NCBI RefSeq assembly: GCF_013340205.1
Contig: NZ_BJTG01000005.1
Span: 372,001-436,000, forward strand
Length of the DNA: 64,000 bases
Direction of reading: 5' to 3'
Origin: Anaeromyxobacter diazotrophicus
GTDB lineage: Bacteria; Myxococcota; Myxococcia; Myxococcales; Anaeromyxobacteraceae
In this document: piece after piece, positions 21,823 to 60,794 of the stretch
Layout of the letters: every line of letters starts with the position of its first letter
How positions within the stretch are numbered: the first letter of the stretch is position 1
The notes under the pieces: model-generated
What the model saw: the letters and a program-made list of their open reading frames with translations, nothing else
What the model was told of the DNA's origin: nothing
Database searches by the model: none
Made by a program: the position numbers and the translations under genes

Positions 21823-22767
21823 ATGCTGGACTCGCCCGTGAACCAGGCCAACGCTCGCCCGCTCCCCGCACCGCCCGCCGGTGCCTCGGACTCCCATCCG
21901 GGGCCTCCGCGCGGCCGCGCGCTCGGCATCGTCTACGTGGTCGCCTCGGGGCTCTGCTTCGGCAGCATGCCGCTCTTCGCGCGCCTCGCGGCGCGGGACG
22001 GCGTGGACACGCCCACGCTCCTCCTCCTGCGCTTCTCCGCCGCGGCGGCGGTCATGTGGGCGCTCGCCGCCTGGAAGCGCGCCGCGATCCCGCGCGGCCG
22101 CGCCCTCGCCACCCTCGTGGCCATGGGCGCGGTGGGCTACGCCGGGCAGGCGTTCTGCTACTTCACCGCGCTCGAGCTCGCCTCCGCCGGGCTGGTGGCG
22201 CTGCTCCTCTACCTCTACCCGGCGCTGGTGGCGCTGCTCGCCCGCGCCGTCTTCCACCACCCGCTCACGAAGGCGCAGCTCGGCGCGGTGGCGCTGGCGC
22301 TCGCGGGCAGCGTCCTCACCGTGGGGCGGCCGGGGCCGGGCACCTCCCTCGGGGTCGCCTTCGGCCTCGCCGCGGCCTTCATCTACTCCGGGTACATCCT
22401 GGCCGGGAGCCGCCTGCCGCGCTCGGTGACGCCCACCGCCTCGACCGCGGTGGTGACCACCGCCGCCGCGATGGTCTACGGCGCGGCGGTGGCGACGCGC
22501 GGCGCGCACCTTCCGGCCACGTCCGCGGGCTGGGTGGGGGTGGCCGGCATCGCGCTCGTGGGGACGGTGCTCGCCATCGGCTTCTTCCTGGCCGGGCTGG
22601 AGCGGGTGGGGCCGGTGCGCGCGTCGGTGTACTCGGCGGTCGAGCCGGTCTTCACGCTGCTGCTCGCCGCCGCCTTCCTGGGCGAGGCGGCCACCGCGCT
22701 CCGGCTCGCGGGGGGTGCGCTCATCGTCGGCGCGGTGGTGCTCCTGGCGCGCGCCGACGGGCGGTAG
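21823..22767 (+). CDS. EamA-family (DMT) transporter
   Basis: An inner membrane protein of 314 residues with about ten hydrophobic helices arranged as two EamA repeats, the first starting ALGIVYVVASGLCFGSMPLFARLA and the second GVAFGLAAAFIYSGYI. The late SVYSAVEPVFTLLLAAAFLGE matches the conserved helix 9 region. Members export metabolites or drugs; substrate unknown. ATG 21823 is used; GTG 21838 or an ATG far upstream (21724) are alternatives. The ~25 residues before the first helix are Pro-rich. It is divergent from the cytochrome maturation operon across a 225-bp gap. Confidence 0.85.
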   Translation: MLDSPVNQANARPLPAPPAGASDSHPGPPRGRALGIVYVVASGLCFGSMPLFARLAARDGVDTPTLLLLRFSAAAAVMWALAAWKRAAIPRGRALATLVAMGAVGYAGQAFCYFTALELASAGLVALLLYLYPALVALLARAVFHHPLTKAQLGAVALALAGSVLTVGRPGPGTSLGVAFGLAAAFIYSGYILAGSRLPRSVTPTASTAVVTTAAAMVYGAAVATRGAHLPATSAGWVGVAGIALVGTVLAIGFFLAGLERVGPVRASVYSAVEPVFTLLLAAAFLGEAATALRLAGGALIVGAVVLLARADGR

Positions 22768-53696: not shown

Positions 53697-55601
53697 GTGA
53701 GCCACCGACCGACCGCGAGCACACCACCAGCCGCCCGCTTCCTCCCCACGACGCGGGAGGAGATGCGCGCGCGCGGCTGGGAGGAGCTGGACGTGCTCCT
53801 CGTGTCGGGCGACGCGTACGTGGACCACCCGAGCTTCGGGACGGCGGTGATCGGCCGCGTCCTGGAGGCGCAGGGGCTGAGGGTGGGGGTGGTGGCGCAG
53901 CCGGACTGGCGGTCGACCGCCGACATCGCGCGGCTGGGCCGGCCGCGGCTCTTCGCGGGGATCACCTCGGGCGCGATGGACTCGATGGTGAACCACTACA
54001 CCGCCCACAAGCGGCGCCGCTCCGACGACGCCTACACGCCGGGCGGGGCCGCGGGGCGGCGGCCGGATCGCGCCACCGCCGTCTACGCCCGGCTGGCGCG
54101 CCAGGCGTTCGGCGACGCGTGCTGCCTGGTGGCGGGCGGGGTCGAGGCGTCGCTCCGGCGGCTCGCGCACTACGACTACTGGGACGACCGCGTGCTGCCG
54201 TCGCTCGCCGCCGCGAGCCAGGTGGACCTCGTCGTCTACGGCCAGGGGGAGCGGCCCATCCTCGAGATCGCGCGCCGGCTGGCGGCGGGGGAGGACCCGT
54301 GCGGCCTCACCGACGTGGCCGGCACCGCGCTCGTCCCGAAGGACCTGGCGCTGGCCGGCCTCGAGGCGCGCGAGCGGGGGGTGCTGGCGCTGCCGGCCTT
54401 CGAGGAGGTGGCGAAGGACAAGCGCGCCTTCGCGGACTTCTCGCGGCTCTACCACCTCGAGCACAACGGGGCGAACGCGCGGACCCTCACCCAGCGTCAC
54501 GGGACGGGCGCGGCGGCCCGGACGGTGGTGGTGAACCCGCCGGCGGCGACGCTCACCACCGAGGAGCTCGACCGGATCGCCGAGCTGCCCTTCGCCCGCG
54601 ACGCGCACCCGTCCTACGGCGGCGCGCACATCCCGGCGCTGGAGCAGATCCGCTGGTCGATCCAGATCCTGCGCGGCTGCAGCGCCGGGTGCTCCTTCTG
54701 CTGCATCACCGAGCACCAGGGGCGCGAGGTGACGAGCCGCTCCGAGGGGTCGGTGCTGCGCGAGATGCGGGAGATGGCGGCGCGGCCCGACTTCCGCGGC
54801 ACGATCACCGACCTCGGCGGCGCCACCGCCAACATGTGGCAGATGTACTGCTCGTCCGAGGAGGCGCACGCCGTCTGCCGGCGACTCTCCTGCGTGTACC
54901 CGAAGATCTGCAAGTTCTGGAAGACCGACCACGCCCCCCTGGTGCAGCTGTACCGCAAGGCGCGCCAGGTGAAGGGCGTGAAGCACGTCTTCGTCGGCTC
55001 GGGCCTGCGCTACGACCTCGCGCACCACGACGCGGAGCACGGTCAGGAGTACCTGAAGGAGCTCATCGCCCACCACGTCTCCGGCCAGCTCAAGGTCGCG
55101 CCCGAGCACGCCGCGCCCGACGTCCTCCAGATCATGAAGAAGCCCGGGATCGAGGAGTTCGAGCGCTTCCGCGGCGAGTTCCAGCGGTACACGAAGGAGG
55201 CCGGGAAGGAGCAGTACCTCGTGCCGTACTTCATCTCCTCGCACCCAGGGTGCACGCTGGAGGACGGGGTGAAGCTGTACGAGTACCTGGAGAAGAATGG
55301 CTGGCGGCCGCAGCAGGTGCAGGACTTCACCCCCACCCCCATGACCCTCGCCTCCGACATGCACTGGTCGGGCTACCACCCGCTCACGATGAAGCCGGTG
55401 CACGTGGTGCGCGACCTGCACGAGAAGAAGATGCAGAAGGCGCTCCTGCGCTGGGGCGACCCCGAGCTGCGGCCGCTGGTGGAGGAGGCGCTGCGCCGCA
55501 CCGGGCGGCTCAAGCCCGGCAAGCGGCTCGTGACGCGGGGGGTGCCGTGGAAGCGGAACGCCGGCTGGCGCCCCGCCCCCCGCGCCGGCCGCAAACCCTA
55601 G
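53697..55601 (+). CDS. YgiQ-family radical SAM protein
   Basis: A 634-residue radical SAM protein. The N-terminal ~290 residues form the YgiQ-specific domain (VLLVSGDAYVDHPSFGTAVIGRVLEAQGLRVG, LVAGGVEASLRRLAHYDYWDDRV). The radical SAM cluster motif is CSAGCSFCC near residue 330, and a second conserved part is HHVSGQLKVAPEHAAPDVL, then YLVPYFISSHPGCTLED and DFTPTPMTLAS. YgiQ proteins are widespread but have no established reaction. GTG start. The start side is 147 bp from the divergent acidic protein gene. Confidence 0.93.
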   Translation: MSHRPTASTPPAARFLPTTREEMRARGWEELDVLLVSGDAYVDHPSFGTAVIGRVLEAQGLRVGVVAQPDWRSTADIARLGRPRLFAGITSGAMDSMVNHYTAHKRRRSDDAYTPGGAAGRRPDRATAVYARLARQAFGDACCLVAGGVEASLRRLAHYDYWDDRVLPSLAAASQVDLVVYGQGERPILEIARRLAAGEDPCGLTDVAGTALVPKDLALAGLEARERGVLALPAFEEVAKDKRAFADFSRLYHLEHNGANARTLTQRHGTGAAARTVVVNPPAATLTTEELDRIAELPFARDAHPSYGGAHIPALEQIRWSIQILRGCSAGCSFCCITEHQGREVTSRSEGSVLREMREMAARPDFRGTITDLGGATANMWQMYCSSEEAHAVCRRLSCVYPKICKFWKTDHAPLVQLYRKARQVKGVKHVFVGSGLRYDLAHHDAEHGQEYLKELIAHHVSGQLKVAPEHAAPDVLQIMKKPGIEEFERFRGEFQRYTKEAGKEQYLVPYFISSHPGCTLEDGVKLYEYLEKNGWRPQQVQDFTPTPMTLASDMHWSGYHPLTMKPVHVVRDLHEKKMQKALLRWGDPELRPLVEEALRRTGRLKPGKRLVTRGVPWKRNAGWRPAPRAGRKP

Positions 55602-55613
55602 CGCCTCGACCGC

Positions 55614-55623
55614 ACCCAGAGTA
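55614..55623 (-). repeat. decamer TACTCTGGGT, inverted copy
   Basis: ACCCAGAGTA, the reverse complement of the decamer found six times elsewhere in this window (56856, 56903, 56927, 60672, 60695, 60731). It lies 12 bp after the YgiQ stop. Confidence 0.75.
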
Positions 55624-55727
55624 CCGCGCTGCGGCCGGTGGGTCCGCGGTGCAGACGGCCGCTGCAGCGGCGCGTGCACGCGGACCAGGGGTTTTCGGGC
55701 GGCACATGCGTTGCCTTGCCCCGCCTC

Positions 55728-56621
55728 ATGAAGGCGCCCCGGCAAGTCCTCCCCGGCACCACCTACCTCGTCACGCGCCGCTGCTCTCAGCGGCAGTTCC
55801 TCCTCCGCCCCTCGAAGACTACGAACGCCATCTTCCTCTACGTCCTAGCGGTCGCCACCCGCCGGTTCGGGATGAAGATTCACGCGTTCTGCGTGCTCTC
55901 CAACCACTTCCACCTCGTCCTCACCGACCCCTCGGCACGCCTGCCGGCCTTCGAGCAATATCTCGACTCGCTCGTCGCGCGCGCCATCAACGCCACGCTT
56001 GGCAGATGGGAGTCCTTCTGGGCGCCATCGAGCTACAGCGCCGTCGCGCTCGCCTCGCCCGCGGACATCGTCGACAAGACCGCCTATGTGCTGGCCAATC
56101 CGGTCGCCGCTGGGCTCGTCCGCCGCGCCCGCGATTGGCCGGGGCTCTGGTCCGCTCCGGCGCTCATCGGCGGCGCGAGCCTGCATGCCGTGCGGCCAGC
56201 CGCGTTCTTTCGCGATGACGGGAGCATGCCGCCAACCGCCGAGCTCCAGCTCGTGGCACCCGAGGGGTTCGAGTCACCCGTCGCGTTCCGCGACCAGGTC
56301 ACCGGGGCGCTCGTCGCCGCGGAGGCTCGCGCCGGCAGCGCGGTCGAGCGCCGCGGCCGCGGCTTTCTCGGACGGGCGCGGGTCCTCTCGCAGAATCCAC
56401 TGGCCCAGCCCGCCACTGGTGAACCTCGCCGTCAGCTCAACCCGCGGGTCGCCTCGCGGGACAAATGGAAACGGGTCGAGACGCTCGCGCGGCTCCTCGA
56501 GTTCGTGGAACGTTATCGAGCGGCAAGGCGCGCGAGGCGCGCCGGCCAGCGCGACGCGCTCTTCCCGCCGGGCACGTACCTCTTGCGCATCGCGCACGGC
56601 GTTGCCTGCGCGCCTGCCTGA
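55728..56621 (+). CDS. REP-associated tyrosine transposase (RAYT/Y1_Tnp)
   Basis: A 297-residue protein. The first ~150 residues are a HUH single-strand transposase: PGTTYLVTRRCSQRQFLL at the start, the metal-binding HxH in VLSNHFHLVLTDP near residue 65, and a candidate catalytic Tyr in KTAYVLANPVAAGLV near residue 121. This matches IS200/IS605-related RAYT proteins. The C-terminal ~140 residues are basic and less typical. ATG 55728 fits the family start. The gene appears intact. Composition is less GC-biased than its neighbours. Decamer repeats lie on both sides, inverted relative to each other, and a terminator follows at 56702. Confidence 0.88.
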   Translation: MKAPRQVLPGTTYLVTRRCSQRQFLLRPSKTTNAIFLYVLAVATRRFGMKIHAFCVLSNHFHLVLTDPSARLPAFEQYLDSLVARAINATLGRWESFWAPSSYSAVALASPADIVDKTAYVLANPVAAGLVRRARDWPGLWSAPALIGGASLHAVRPAAFFRDDGSMPPTAELQLVAPEGFESPVAFRDQVTGALVAAEARAGSAVERRGRGFLGRARVLSQNPLAQPATGEPRRQLNPRVASRDKWKRVETLARLLEFVERYRAARRARRAGQRDALFPPGTYLLRIAHGVACAPA

Positions 56622-56701
56622 CGAGGCCGCCGCCCACGTTCAGCAGCTTGCTACGGTACGGCGCACGTGGCGTCGGATCGTTCGCTGACCTTGTCCGGTG
56701 A

Positions 56702-56731
56702 GGCCCGCGCTCAAGCGAGCCGGGCCCTTTT
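56702..56731 (+). terminator. Rho-independent terminator after transposase gene
   Basis: GGCCCGCGCTC, loop AAGC, GAGCCGGGCC with one unpaired base, followed by CTTTT. It is 80 bp after the transposase stop and one of the few hairpins here with a T-run. Confidence 0.65.
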
Positions 56732-56855
56732 GCGCCCCGCTCCTGGGCGCGCCGGCCCGCCAGCGGTAATTCCGGCACCGAATGGGCACGCGCTGTCCTC
56801 CGAGGGGGGGGCGCGCGCCGCGTGGCGGAAGGACGGTACCTTTCGTTTCTGCCGC

Positions 56856-56937
56856 TACTCTGGGTCAGGCCTGAACGAACCGATACTCTCTGTTCGCCTA
56901 ACTACTCTGGGTCGGCGTTCGGCAAGTACTCTGGGTC
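56856..56937 (+). repeat. three direct copies of TACTCTGGGTC
   Basis: Exact copies at 56856-56866, 56903-56913 and 56927-56937; the last two are spaced 24 bp apart with a shared flanking GTTCG. A degenerate copy is at 56884. The orientation is opposite to that of the copy at 55614. Confidence 0.85.
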
Positions 56938-56963
56938 GGGCGAAAGAGCACCCTGGAAATGGA

Positions 56964-56995
56964 GAGGCCCGCCAGCGCGGACGCTGGCGGGCCTC
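56964..56995 (-). terminator. strong hairpin after cytochrome gene
   Basis: GAGGCCCGCCAGCG (56964-56977), loop CGGA, then its exact complement (56982-56995): a 14-bp perfect stem with a tetraloop, 24 bp beyond the cytochrome stop at 57020 on the reverse strand. The T-run is weak (ATTT after 8 bases). Confidence 0.7.
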
Positions 56996-57019
56996 GAGCT
57001 GCTTCGATCTACGTCGGGA

Positions 57020-60000
57020 CTACTTCGGCAGCCCCGGCGAGTCGAGGTTGTTCACCATCGCGCTCAGCATCGCGTCGACGAACGGGATGTTGTGGACGCC
57101 CTTCGAGTTGTCGTTCTCGAGGAGCGCGTAGTCGTACATCGACTTGGCGACCTTGCCGTAGACCTTGTCCGTCCCGGACACCGTGTACAACACCGGGGTG
57201 CTGCCGGACATGATCTTGTCGATGTTGCAGCCCGCGACGACGTCGCCGTTCGAGAACGTGAAGTCGAGGGTCAGCGGACGGTCACCGCTGACGACGACCT
57301 TGGAGATGGTCACGCCAGCGGCCGGGGTGTAGTCCGCGGCGGTGGTGGCCGCGCCGAGCTTGCCGTTCACCACCGTGATGCCCGCACCCTTGAGCACGTT
57401 CGCCAGGCTCGTCAGGTACTGCGGCAGCATGCGGTTCATCACGATCTCACGCGACGCGATGTACGCCGTGCCCGTGCCGTGGCAACCGGCGCAGGTGCCC
57501 TCGTCCACGTTGAAGGTGTGGTTCGAGGGCGTGCCCTTCGTAGCGGTGCTGAGCCGCTTCACGTGGCACTCCGCGCAGGTGTCCGCGAAGTAGGTCGGGT
57601 TCTGGTGCGGATTCGGCGTGGTCGGCATGGGGCAAGCGCCCGAGGCCGAGCCGCTGTTGCAGAGCAGGTACCCGTTCCCCGCGAAGTACACGTCGGCCTG
57701 GGCCGCCGAGTGCGGGCCAGTCATGGTGAAGTTGGCGGACGTGAGCGGCGTCGCGTCGTTGTGCTGCATCGGCGTGCCAGCCACGGCGACGGTCCCCTTG
57801 TCGGAGATCGGGGACTTCGCGCCGACGATGCCGTTGCGGGAGTTGTGGCAGCTCGCGCACAGCGCGCCCGACCCGGCGTTGTAAATCTTGAAGCCACCGG
57901 CGAGGAGCATGCCGTTCGCGGTGTCGGCCGGCTTGATGCGGACCTCGAGCGAGTGCGGATCGTGGCAGGTCTGGCACGTGATGGCGTCGATGTTCTGCGC
58001 CGTCACGAGGCCCGTCGTCTGAGCCGTCGGGCAGGCGTCCTTGGTGCCGTCCGTCGTCCCCGGGGCGCACAGCAGCGGGGTGACGAGAGCGGTCGTCGGG
58101 GCCCCGACGGGCGCGGCGTTGCCGAGCTTGTCCGGGTTACCGCTCACGATCGCCTGCGAGTACATCATGTAGCCCTGGGCGAAGTGGCACCGGCCGCAGT
58201 GCGTCTGGTCGCGGCCGTGCAGCGGGCCCTCGTTCTGCGCGTCCGTCAGGTTGGCGTGGCCGTGCAGCGGGGCGGCCGTGGTGCCCGCCGTCGACGCCCA
58301 CTGCTCGAACTGCGGGTCGTGGCCGTTGTGGCACGTGCCGCAGATCCTGGAGCTCATGGACGCGGTGTGGTTCGGGCTGTTCGGCGTCGGGCCGTGGCAG
58401 CTCGTGCACTGGACGTTGACGAGCGCGGCGGCGGGGGCGTTCTTCGCGGCCAGGTCGGCCAGGAAGAGCGTCGAGTCGCTGCCTTCGAAGAGGAAGTCGT
58501 TGGTGTACGTGCCGAGCGCGTCGGAGAAGCCCTTGTTGCCCACCGGCAGATTCGTGTCGTAGCCGGTCGTGTGGCAGCTGCCGCACGCCTGGAGCGTGAA
58601 GTGCGTGTTCGACGCGCCATCGACGATGGCCTTCGAGTGCTTGCTCTCCAGCCAGCCGGTGGTCGGCTCGGTGGGGCCGAGCTCGTAGCACGGCGTCACG
58701 CCGTCGTTCGGAGTATTCGGGCACACCGTCTTGTCGTAGGCGACCGGCTCACCGGGCGCGATGTGGCAGCCGGCGCAGCTCTCGATGGGGTTGCCCGCGC
58801 TGTCCTTCTGGCCGCGCTGATCCCAGCTACCCCAGATCTGCGGCTTCACCGGGATGTTCGGCGTCATGGTGGCGGCGATCTGGTCGCTCGTAAGGTAGAG
58901 CGTCTTGCCGACCGTCCAGTTGGCGAACACCCAGCCGGGGTGCGCGGTGAGCTGCGCGTTGGCGTTCGTGCTGTCGGTGTTGGTGCCGCAGGTGCCGCTG
59001 TAGATGTCGGACGCCCCGGTGCAGAACTTGAAGTTCGCGCCGGCGGGGCCGTCGAGGACGACGACGACGTTGGGCGGGATCTGGACGGCGTTGTGCGCGC
59101 GCCAGGTGCTGCCGTCGGGGTTCGTGCCCGGCGGGTACATGTTGGCGTTCTTGGTGTCGGCACCAGCCGCCCACAGCGGGCCGGTGACGCCGGGGAGGCC
59201 GTTCGCGGCGCCCTTGTAGGAGGCCATCTTGAACGGCTCGCCGCGGAGCGCTGTGGCGACGTTGGCGTTCACCGCCGCGACCATCGGGATCTTCACCGAG
59301 GTGGTCGCGCCGTTCAGCGCGCACTTCGCGGTGTAGGCGAGCGACCCCGCCTGCGTCTGGTTGATCGAGACGATGCCGGGGCGGCCCTCGGTGGTGGGGG
59401 CGAGCACGGCGGTGACGCTCGCGTCGCCGAGGGTGACCGTCGTGAAGGTGGAGTTGCCGTTCGCGTCGGGGACGGAGACGGAGGGCGAGCCGGGGCCGGT
59501 GACGGTCACCGTGCCGCCCACGCCGCAGCCGACGGTGACGGTCGCGCCGAAGCCGACCACGCCCGTCGGGCTGACCGTGACGGTCGGGGGAGCGACCGGC
59601 GCGACGTAGGTGCTCGCGCGCGCGACCGCGATGTCGGTCTGCCGCACGAGGCAGCCCGCGCCCATCTGGCCAGCGGTCGGAACCCAGTAGCCCTGCTTCG
59701 CGCCGCCGAGGAAGCAGGAGCCGGCGGGATCGGCCACGCCGTCCGGGACCGGGACGGTCACGGCGACGCCAGCCGCGGCCGCGTACTGCGTGTTCGCGAC
59801 GGTCTGCAGGGTGTAGCTGCCCGGCGCGATCTCGAAGACATAGGCGCCGTTGGCGTTGGTCGTGGCGGAGAGCGAGCCGAGGGTCACCTTGACGCCCGCG
59901 GCGCCGGCGGTGCCGTCCTTCACATAGCCGTACACGCGGCCGACCGTGGTCGGCGGGAGCGGCTGGCTCTTGAAGGTGGCCGAGACCGAGTAGTCGGCGG

Positions 60001-60349
60001 TGCCGGCGAGGGTGCAGGTGGTGGTCGTCCCGGCGCAGTCGCCGCCCCAGGAGACGAAGGCGTAGCCGTCGGCGGGCTTCGCGGTCAGGACGACCGGCGT
60101 GGCCCAGGCAGTGAACTTCGTCTGGTGGTACGCGGCGTCGCCGCAGCCCGTGCCCGACGACTGGCAGTTGATGGAACCGTCACCCGACACGATGGTGCCG
60201 CCGGCCGCCGGCGCCACGGTGACGTAGAAGGACTCCCCGCTGACGCCCTTCGCGGGGCCAGCCGGGGGCTTGGAGCTGCTGCCCCCGCCGCATCCCACGG
60301 CGGCGATGGCGCAGACTGCGAGCGCCCATCCCAAAGACCAACGACGCAT
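57020..60349 (-). CDS. nine-heme c-type cytochrome lipoprotein
   Basis: A 1109-residue exported protein. Lipobox AAVGC near residue 19 followed by GGGSSS marks an outer-membrane or periplasmic lipoprotein. Residues ~35-105 resemble a bacterial surface repeat domain (GYAFVSWGGDCAG), and ~113-165 a carboxypeptidase regulatory-like beta sandwich (GRVYGYVKDGTAGAAGVKV, ANGAYVFEIAPGSYTLQT). Nine CXXCH haem sites fill the C-terminal half: CAGCH, CGSCH, CTSCH, CGTCH, CGRCH, CQTCH, CASCH, CAECH, CAGCH, with extra His for axial ligands. Such proteins carry electrons across or outside the cell envelope, for example to metals. GGAGG lies eight bases before the ATG. No porin or second cytochrome gene is adjacent. 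Less GC-biased than its neighbours, with repeats on both sides. The CcsA/ResB pair of this window could mature it. Confidence 0.93.
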   Translation of the reverse strand: MRRWSLGWALAVCAIAAVGCGGGSSSKPPAGPAKGVSGESFYVTVAPAAGGTIVSGDGSINCQSSGTGCGDAAYHQTKFTAWATPVVLTAKPADGYAFVSWGGDCAGTTTTCTLAGTADYSVSATFKSQPLPPTTVGRVYGYVKDGTAGAAGVKVTLGSLSATTNANGAYVFEIAPGSYTLQTVANTQYAAAAGVAVTVPVPDGVADPAGSCFLGGAKQGYWVPTAGQMGAGCLVRQTDIAVARASTYVAPVAPPTVTVSPTGVVGFGATVTVGCGVGGTVTVTGPGSPSVSVPDANGNSTFTTVTLGDASVTAVLAPTTEGRPGIVSINQTQAGSLAYTAKCALNGATTSVKIPMVAAVNANVATALRGEPFKMASYKGAANGLPGVTGPLWAAGADTKNANMYPPGTNPDGSTWRAHNAVQIPPNVVVVLDGPAGANFKFCTGASDIYSGTCGTNTDSTNANAQLTAHPGWVFANWTVGKTLYLTSDQIAATMTPNIPVKPQIWGSWDQRGQKDSAGNPIESCAGCHIAPGEPVAYDKTVCPNTPNDGVTPCYELGPTEPTTGWLESKHSKAIVDGASNTHFTLQACGSCHTTGYDTNLPVGNKGFSDALGTYTNDFLFEGSDSTLFLADLAAKNAPAAALVNVQCTSCHGPTPNSPNHTASMSSRICGTCHNGHDPQFEQWASTAGTTAAPLHGHANLTDAQNEGPLHGRDQTHCGRCHFAQGYMMYSQAIVSGNPDKLGNAAPVGAPTTALVTPLLCAPGTTDGTKDACPTAQTTGLVTAQNIDAITCQTCHDPHSLEVRIKPADTANGMLLAGGFKIYNAGSGALCASCHNSRNGIVGAKSPISDKGTVAVAGTPMQHNDATPLTSANFTMTGPHSAAQADVYFAGNGYLLCNSGSASGACPMPTTPNPHQNPTYFADTCAECHVKRLSTATKGTPSNHTFNVDEGTCAGCHGTGTAYIASREIVMNRMLPQYLTSLANVLKGAGITVVNGKLGAATTAADYTPAAGVTISKVVVSGDRPLTLDFTFSNGDVVAGCNIDKIMSGSTPVLYTVSGTDKVYGKVAKSMYDYALLENDNSKGVHNIPFVDAMLSAMVNNLDSPGLPK

Positions 60350-60794
60350 GTGTTGCCTCCTGGTCGCGCGCCTCGGCGCGCGCAGCAATGCCGATCGCTT
60401 CGTGAGCTCACTCGACAGCAGCTACCCCTCGAGGCGGATGCCTCGGCGGCGCACGCCGCCTGGAACGGACCGACTGACTCCGTGGCCGTGCGGAGCAACA
60501 TCCGTACCCAGAGGGGCTGCTGGTACCCTCGCGGATTACGCGTAGTTACAGGCGAGGTGCGTTCACGGAGGTGCGCCAGATCCCCCAATAAATGCCCCCA
60601 TTGGGTGAGTCATGGGGCACATGACACCCGGCCCCCGCCTCGGGGTTGGGAGGGGCGCCTCGCGGTTCAATTACTCTGGGTAGGGACGCGCAATTACTCT
60701 GGGTAGGGACGCGAGGGTAGGGACGCGAATTACTCTGGGTAAGGCACGCGCGCGGGGTGGCCTCCGCGATCGCGCGGCGCGGACCCGGCCAGCC
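60350..60794. other. intergenic region, 445 bp, upstream of cytochrome gene
   Basis: Must hold the cytochrome promoter on the reverse strand. It also contains an inverted partial decamer (ACCCAGAG, 60507-60514), CCCAAT..ATTGGG (about 60585-60606), and the 23-bp tandem array at 60668-60750. No gene seen. No promoter could be assigned confidently by eye. Confidence 0.6.
60668..60750 (+). repeat. tandem 23-bp repeats containing TACTCTGGGT
   Basis: Two exact 23-bp units (60668-60690 and 60691-60713), each CAAT + TACTCTGGGT + AGGGACGCG with the T of CAAT followed by the decamer, then a 14-bp partial unit (60714-60727), then a near-copy ending AAGGCACGCG (60728-60750). Decamers are at 60672, 60695 and 60731, in the same orientation as those right of the transposase. 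Confidence 0.9.

Follow-up and report, generated by a model that had tools for sequence, protein, structure and literature searches.

The ten-base word TACTCTGGGT that recurs around a transposase gene in the window, the 64,000-nucleotide stretch of Anaeromyxobacter diazotrophicus DNA analysed here, is very probably, judging by comparison among relatives, the core of the terminal inverted repeats (TIRs) that bound a small one-gene RAYT-type transposon of ~1.27 kb. A TIR-flanked RAYT transposon together with arrays produced by its own activity is the likely explanation of the locus as a whole. A sequence-only reading had reported seven exact copies of the word, at 55614 (inverted), 56856, 56903, 56927, 60672, 60695 and 60731, and none elsewhere in the window, and this count was reproduced. 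Seven copies compare with 0.03 expected, and that number was reached in none of 100 shuffles; when one mismatch was allowed, the sole additional match in the window lay at 22384. Across the 4.83 Mb genome the word occurs 14 times and a reversed control word not at all, which is not a chance-level frequency. The 14 copies form three clusters, on contigs C5 (which carries the window), C15 and C6, and a protein search of the genome with the window transposase found three full-length relatives and no more, one on each of these contigs. Enrichment near RAYT copies thus holds genome-wide, with 14 of 14 words within 5 kb of one of the three paralogs, and the distance from the inverted copy on the left to the first copy on the right is 1,242 bp in the window and on C15 alike. 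Genomes that lack the transposase contain the word 0 times (G013-G016) or twice (G001), below the reversed control, and a variant word, ACTCTCGGTCGG, is present in 36 copies in genome G005 (control, 0).

The transposase gene (55728-56621, + strand) encodes a RAYT/TIRYT-type HUH-Y1 protein of 297 aa with H60, H62 and Y120 as catalytic residues. Its earlier identification as a RAYT was upheld in the sense of RAYT-like. In an alignment of 57 proteins both histidines are invariant and the tyrosine is conserved in at least 90%, and the best PDB fold match of the predicted structure (mean pLDDT 86) found by Foldseek is 4er8, E. coli TnpA-REP, with a TM score of 0.72 on the target. The protein also has about 150 additional residues at its C-terminus, absent from 4er8, and it scores below the cut-offs of both NCBIfam REP_Tyr_transpos (62.6 bits; cut-off 80) and Pfam Y1_Tnp (19.6; cut-off 23). 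It is a divergent relative of the RAYT or TnpA-REP-like HUH Y1 transposases.

In the window, the left terminal inverted repeat (LE; 55605-55626, − strand) has its core, ACCCAGAGTA, at 55614-55623, and the first right terminal inverted repeat (RE1; 56853-56874, + strand) has its decamer at 56856-56865. The outer tip of LE is predicted at ~55605, 4 nt beyond the stop codon of a ygiQ-like gene (55599-55601), by the +10 rule described below; with this predicted tip, the element measures about 1.27 kb from LE tip to RE1 tip. Two more right-end copies (decamers at 56903 and 56927) and a degenerate one near 56884 follow at 56875-56946 (+ strand), an array that is older and diverged. Between the right end and the stop codon of the neighbouring cytochrome gene lies a perfect 14-bp inverted repeat, GAGGCCCGCCAGCG/CGCTGGCGGGCCTC (56964-56995), probably a transcription terminator.

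Sixty full-length transposase relatives were taken with their flanks from Anaeromyxobacteraceae genomes and oriented by the gene. Where the exact word is present, most relatives have an inverted copy 110-125 bp upstream of the start codon, and a direct copy follows about 224-316 bp past the stop; relatives lacking the exact word have variants at equivalent places. For most of the 60 copies LE falls between -111 and -127 and RE between about +200 and +260, with some right ends missing or unrecognisable, and the conserved TIR core reads CCnGACC[C/G]AGAGtA. The two ends of an element agree with each other at 9.91 of 11 positions, as compared to 9.01 for shuffled pairs, a value reached in 0 of 5000 permutations; loci L098 and L106, for instance, have GTCCCAGAGACGTT on the left and its complement on the right. 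Distant relatives in other Myxococcota have different inverted repeats at comparable spacing, such as GAACCAGGATAGTTT at -129/+212 (L197) and TCCTCCCGAGGGCCG at -83/+194 (L198). This co-variation of left and right ends, together with the distinct repeats of distant relatives, indicates that the word is a TIR core evolving with its transposase. The earlier idea of a non-palindromic target therefore survives in part: the word does belong to the transposase and probably lies within its site of action, but what had been taken for a dispersed target word is the element's own TIR core plus partial copies of its ends.

The statement that the repeats are not REP hairpins was borne out by covariation, folding and GTAG tests. 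Two candidate hairpins in the left end were rejected, as their compensatory changes were no better than those of shuffles. Left ends are modestly more foldable than shuffled sequences and right ends no more so, and GTAG is not conserved at the element ends among the relatives. Separately, one distant RAYT relative (L204, G140:C112) has a palindromic GAAGGTGYCWGRCACCTTC word on both sides, possibly a hairpin type of end within the same protein family.

By its copy record the element behaves in an IS-like manner, being multi-copy and including one near-identical pair with unrelated flanks. Most family members carry 3 to 20 RAYT copies per genome, and those at different places in G005 are 86-95% identical to one another. 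The pair is found at L107 (G022:C22:136344-147585), where two full elements 4.3 kb apart are 99.9% identical over 1,258 bp and the flanking sequence is unrelated directly outside ...GGGGCCTC; by this measure the locus is the best candidate for an active element. The three copies in the window genome are only about 75% identical at the DNA level and are therefore old. A clean empty site was found neither for the L058 flanks in five genomes nor for G022 copy A, and the empty site that the sequence-only reading had proposed seeking at the ygiQ-cytochrome junction did not appear as a clean uninterrupted site in 24 genomes. Since no clean empty site was found, we infer insertion from the copies. 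The element had no match among phage records and only distant transposases among plasmid records.

The extra decamers belong to partial copies of element ends, arranged in tandem. The limits of these units were compiled for 47 array ends and 108 repeat pairs, with positions counted from the end of CTCT[G/C]GG. The outer unit limit falls at +9 to +13 nt in 71 of the 108 pairs and at +10/+11 in 50, and many of the outer limits that fall short of +9 come from one TIR copy matching a separate one. Inner limits are spread between -49 and +6 and peak at -3 (23 cases), between CTCT and [G/C]GG. The inner limits vary more than the outer ones within a locus (Wilcoxon p=6e-4; 22 loci for and 9 against, among 35), and the dinucleotide at the outer limit is not constant. 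Repeat starts are concentrated at the element ends as compared to nearby control sequence (RE, 650 vs 83; LE, 696 vs 123). Because the +10 limit is also where the recently duplicated full element of G022 ends, we infer that this limit is the element tip, and the near-constant outer limit in these alignments predicts the cutting position of the enzyme.

Unit size spans a wide range, from 13-nt units up to copies with half the gene. The smallest units, of 13-14 nt, run from just after CTCT (beginning GGG...) to the +10/+11 limit. Longer copies retain one end: in G002, the left end plus residues 1-105 form a copy directly ahead of the full element; G007 has two copies with the left end and residues 1-117; and copies in G005 and G010 have the right end with residues 47-294, 134-294 or 206-299. 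At L084 (G005:C2:15000-25000), right-end-anchored, 5'-truncated RAYT fragments cluster around a full copy, a pattern that recalls truncated retroelement copies, though the enzyme acts on DNA. At L053 (G007:C1:2624420-2638300), a repeat of ~3.26 kb that carries left ends and truncated RAYT genes adjoins a full copy.

The second array of the window (60668-60750, + strand) fits the unit geometry of the other array ends. Its four units (60668-60690, 60691-60713, 60714-60727 and 60728-60750) comprise two of CAATTACTCTGGGTAGGGACGCG, one truncated to GGGTAGGGACGCG (60714-60727) and one diverged, GGGTAAGGCACGCG (60728-60750), and the first three end alike in ...GGGTAGGGACGCG. A degenerate inverted end, TCCGTACCCAGAG (60501-60513, − strand; 92% complementary), faces this array, and the two may together form a gene-less MITE-like element of about 250 bp.

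That the transposase itself makes such arrays, either by transferring one end of a strand again and again or by copying that aborts, is about as likely as not. In the proposed scheme, the enzyme would act on single-stranded DNA and cut at two places: the tip, which lies 10-11 nt outside CTCT[G/C]GG, and just after CTCT, 13-14 nt inward of the tip. HUH enzymes leave a 3'-OH and a 5'-phosphotyrosine. Cuts at the two positions followed by joining between copies would yield the 13-14-nt units, and the longer ones would result from copying that began at the tip and stopped early. Repeated one-ended transfer or aborted copying would add partial ends, one behind another, at the boundary of the element. 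The same activity, over a short range, would have produced gene-less solo arrays such as 60668-60750. The more general proposal, that a RAYT enzyme recognises an inverted repeat that is not a hairpin, mobilises its own gene as one unit and starts single-strand transfer or copying at a fixed tip, aborted events leaving nested partial ends, is put forward tentatively, with the odds somewhat against it. If true, the arrays would be a natural record of cutting sites, and RAYTs would be linked to one-ended, rolling-circle-like transposition.

It is unlikely that the arrays stem from ordinary slippage during replication or from unequal recombination between short repeats, with the transposase supplying only the TIR. 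The units are short and tandem, some left ends have simple-repeat flanks (L022, L069, L105), and slippage at protein-bound ends could yield tandem units too. However, a near-fixed outer limit at +10/+11 across genomes with differing flanks is not what slippage predicts, and neither are the inner peak at -3 and the partial copies, hundreds of bases long, that keep one end intact. The 13-14-nt size of the smallest units would also suit a target duplication or footprint, in which each insertion beside a TIR makes a staggered cut of that length and loss of the insert leaves the duplicates with end residues. This is improbable, since no HUH/Y1 enzyme is known to make 13-14-nt target duplications, no direct repeat was seen by eye beside the two recent G022 copies, and the long units have no second end.

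The large gene between the two end arrays (57021-60349, − strand) had been called a nine-heme cytochrome, and its nine CxxCH motifs agree with this. It had also been proposed that transposase and cytochrome were moved or retained together as a cassette. A composite in which that gene was mobilised jointly by the RAYT element and by the array on its far side would suit its position between two end arrays and the weak matches, and no better ones, that it has in the other 23 family genomes. Such a composite is nonetheless very improbable: a multihaem ORF lies within about 3 kb of only 1 of 60 RAYT copies; on C15, an equal spacing from RAYT to array spans other ORFs, which from their sequence resemble proB/proA housekeeping genes; and RAYT copies with no cargo also have solo arrays nearby. 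The cytochrome was judged a bystander and its link to the repeats a coincidence.

In the window genome, neither solo array is more than 5 kb from a RAYT copy. For G002-G004, the share of solo clusters within 30 kb of a RAYT is 5 of 9, as compared to 3-5% by chance, with G002 and G003 not independent of each other; in G007, 0 of 5 are. Gene-less inverted pairs resembling MITEs are present in G017, G008 and G007 (L122). Those of G017 (L125, L126, L127, L128, L178, L179) are about 75-110 bp apart and have inner words in common, e.g. GGCCTGATTCC and GCGTCAT, resembling a MITE family. Solo decamers also occur at the same place in related strains (L110/L113 and L111/L114/L130), and thus some are old and stable. 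Such constant places would suit a regulatory or replication-related host site that attracts elements, but this is the least probable reading of all, since the word varies in step with the element's other end and is nearly absent from genomes without the transposase.

As a RAYT transposon with non-hairpin ends, the element shares features with several known systems. With IS200/IS605 elements (IS608, ISDra2) it has in common a single-gene organisation, an HUH/Y1 enzyme and a Foldseek match. The ends of IS200/IS605 elements are subterminal hairpins, not inverted repeats; those of the window family are inverted repeats with no conserved hairpin, and structure at RE is no better than in shuffles. 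One-ended transposition of IS91 and Helitrons, as described in PMC4778049, likewise gives HUH-enzyme products with one fixed and one variable end, but their enzymes are much larger (with a helicase in Helitrons), and the window family uses either end as the fixed one, with products in tandem at the element. REPtrons and TnpA-REP (4er8) have the same catalytic fold, and E. coli TnpA-REP cuts at CT (PMC8266576), the inner hot spot here also following CT, in CTCT; unlike REPtrons, the window family has no supported hairpin or conserved GTAG, and it has few repeat copies and many gene copies.

The closest arrangement is the TIRYT/TIRtron, a RAYT-like HUH/Y1 gene between TIRs unrelated to GTAG REPs, whose TIRs form moderate families that include dimers and clusters (Di Nocera 2013, PMC3733652). 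The window family is alike in having a RAYT-like gene flanked by TIRs unrelated to REPs and in having TIR copies elsewhere in the genomes as singles, dimers or clusters. It differs in that its core, CCnGACC[C/G]AGAG, is by inspection without GGGGWSAS on either strand, a motif common to some, not all, TIRtrons (PMC3733652). TIRtrons were later tied to Y1 subclass 2.1, which had yielded no REP-like sequences (PMC6006769). Of the subclass 2.1 motifs (NH[YF]H, W[EQ], Y[IV]HLNP), the first is matched by NHFH of the window family; its W followed by A, and its tyrosine motif YVLANP, do not fit. Because its catalytic motifs fit subclass 2.1 poorly, the family was assigned to the TIRYT kind as a variant. 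No earlier description of this protein family for Anaeromyxobacter was found in the literature at the level of main texts, and the TIRtron main text does not contain the co-variation of ends, a recent full copy or outer-anchored partial copies (PMC3733652). The TIR-flanked RAYT arrangement is thus known from TIRtrons, and outer-anchored partial copies were not found described in the main texts. RAYTs are usually described as single-copy, domesticated genes tied to REP hairpins, with the mechanism of dissemination unknown (PMC8266576). The window family adds relatives that are multi-copy and recently mobile, have inverted ends and carry what looks like a record of cutting positions, which makes the RAYT mechanism testable with one protein and short oligonucleotides.
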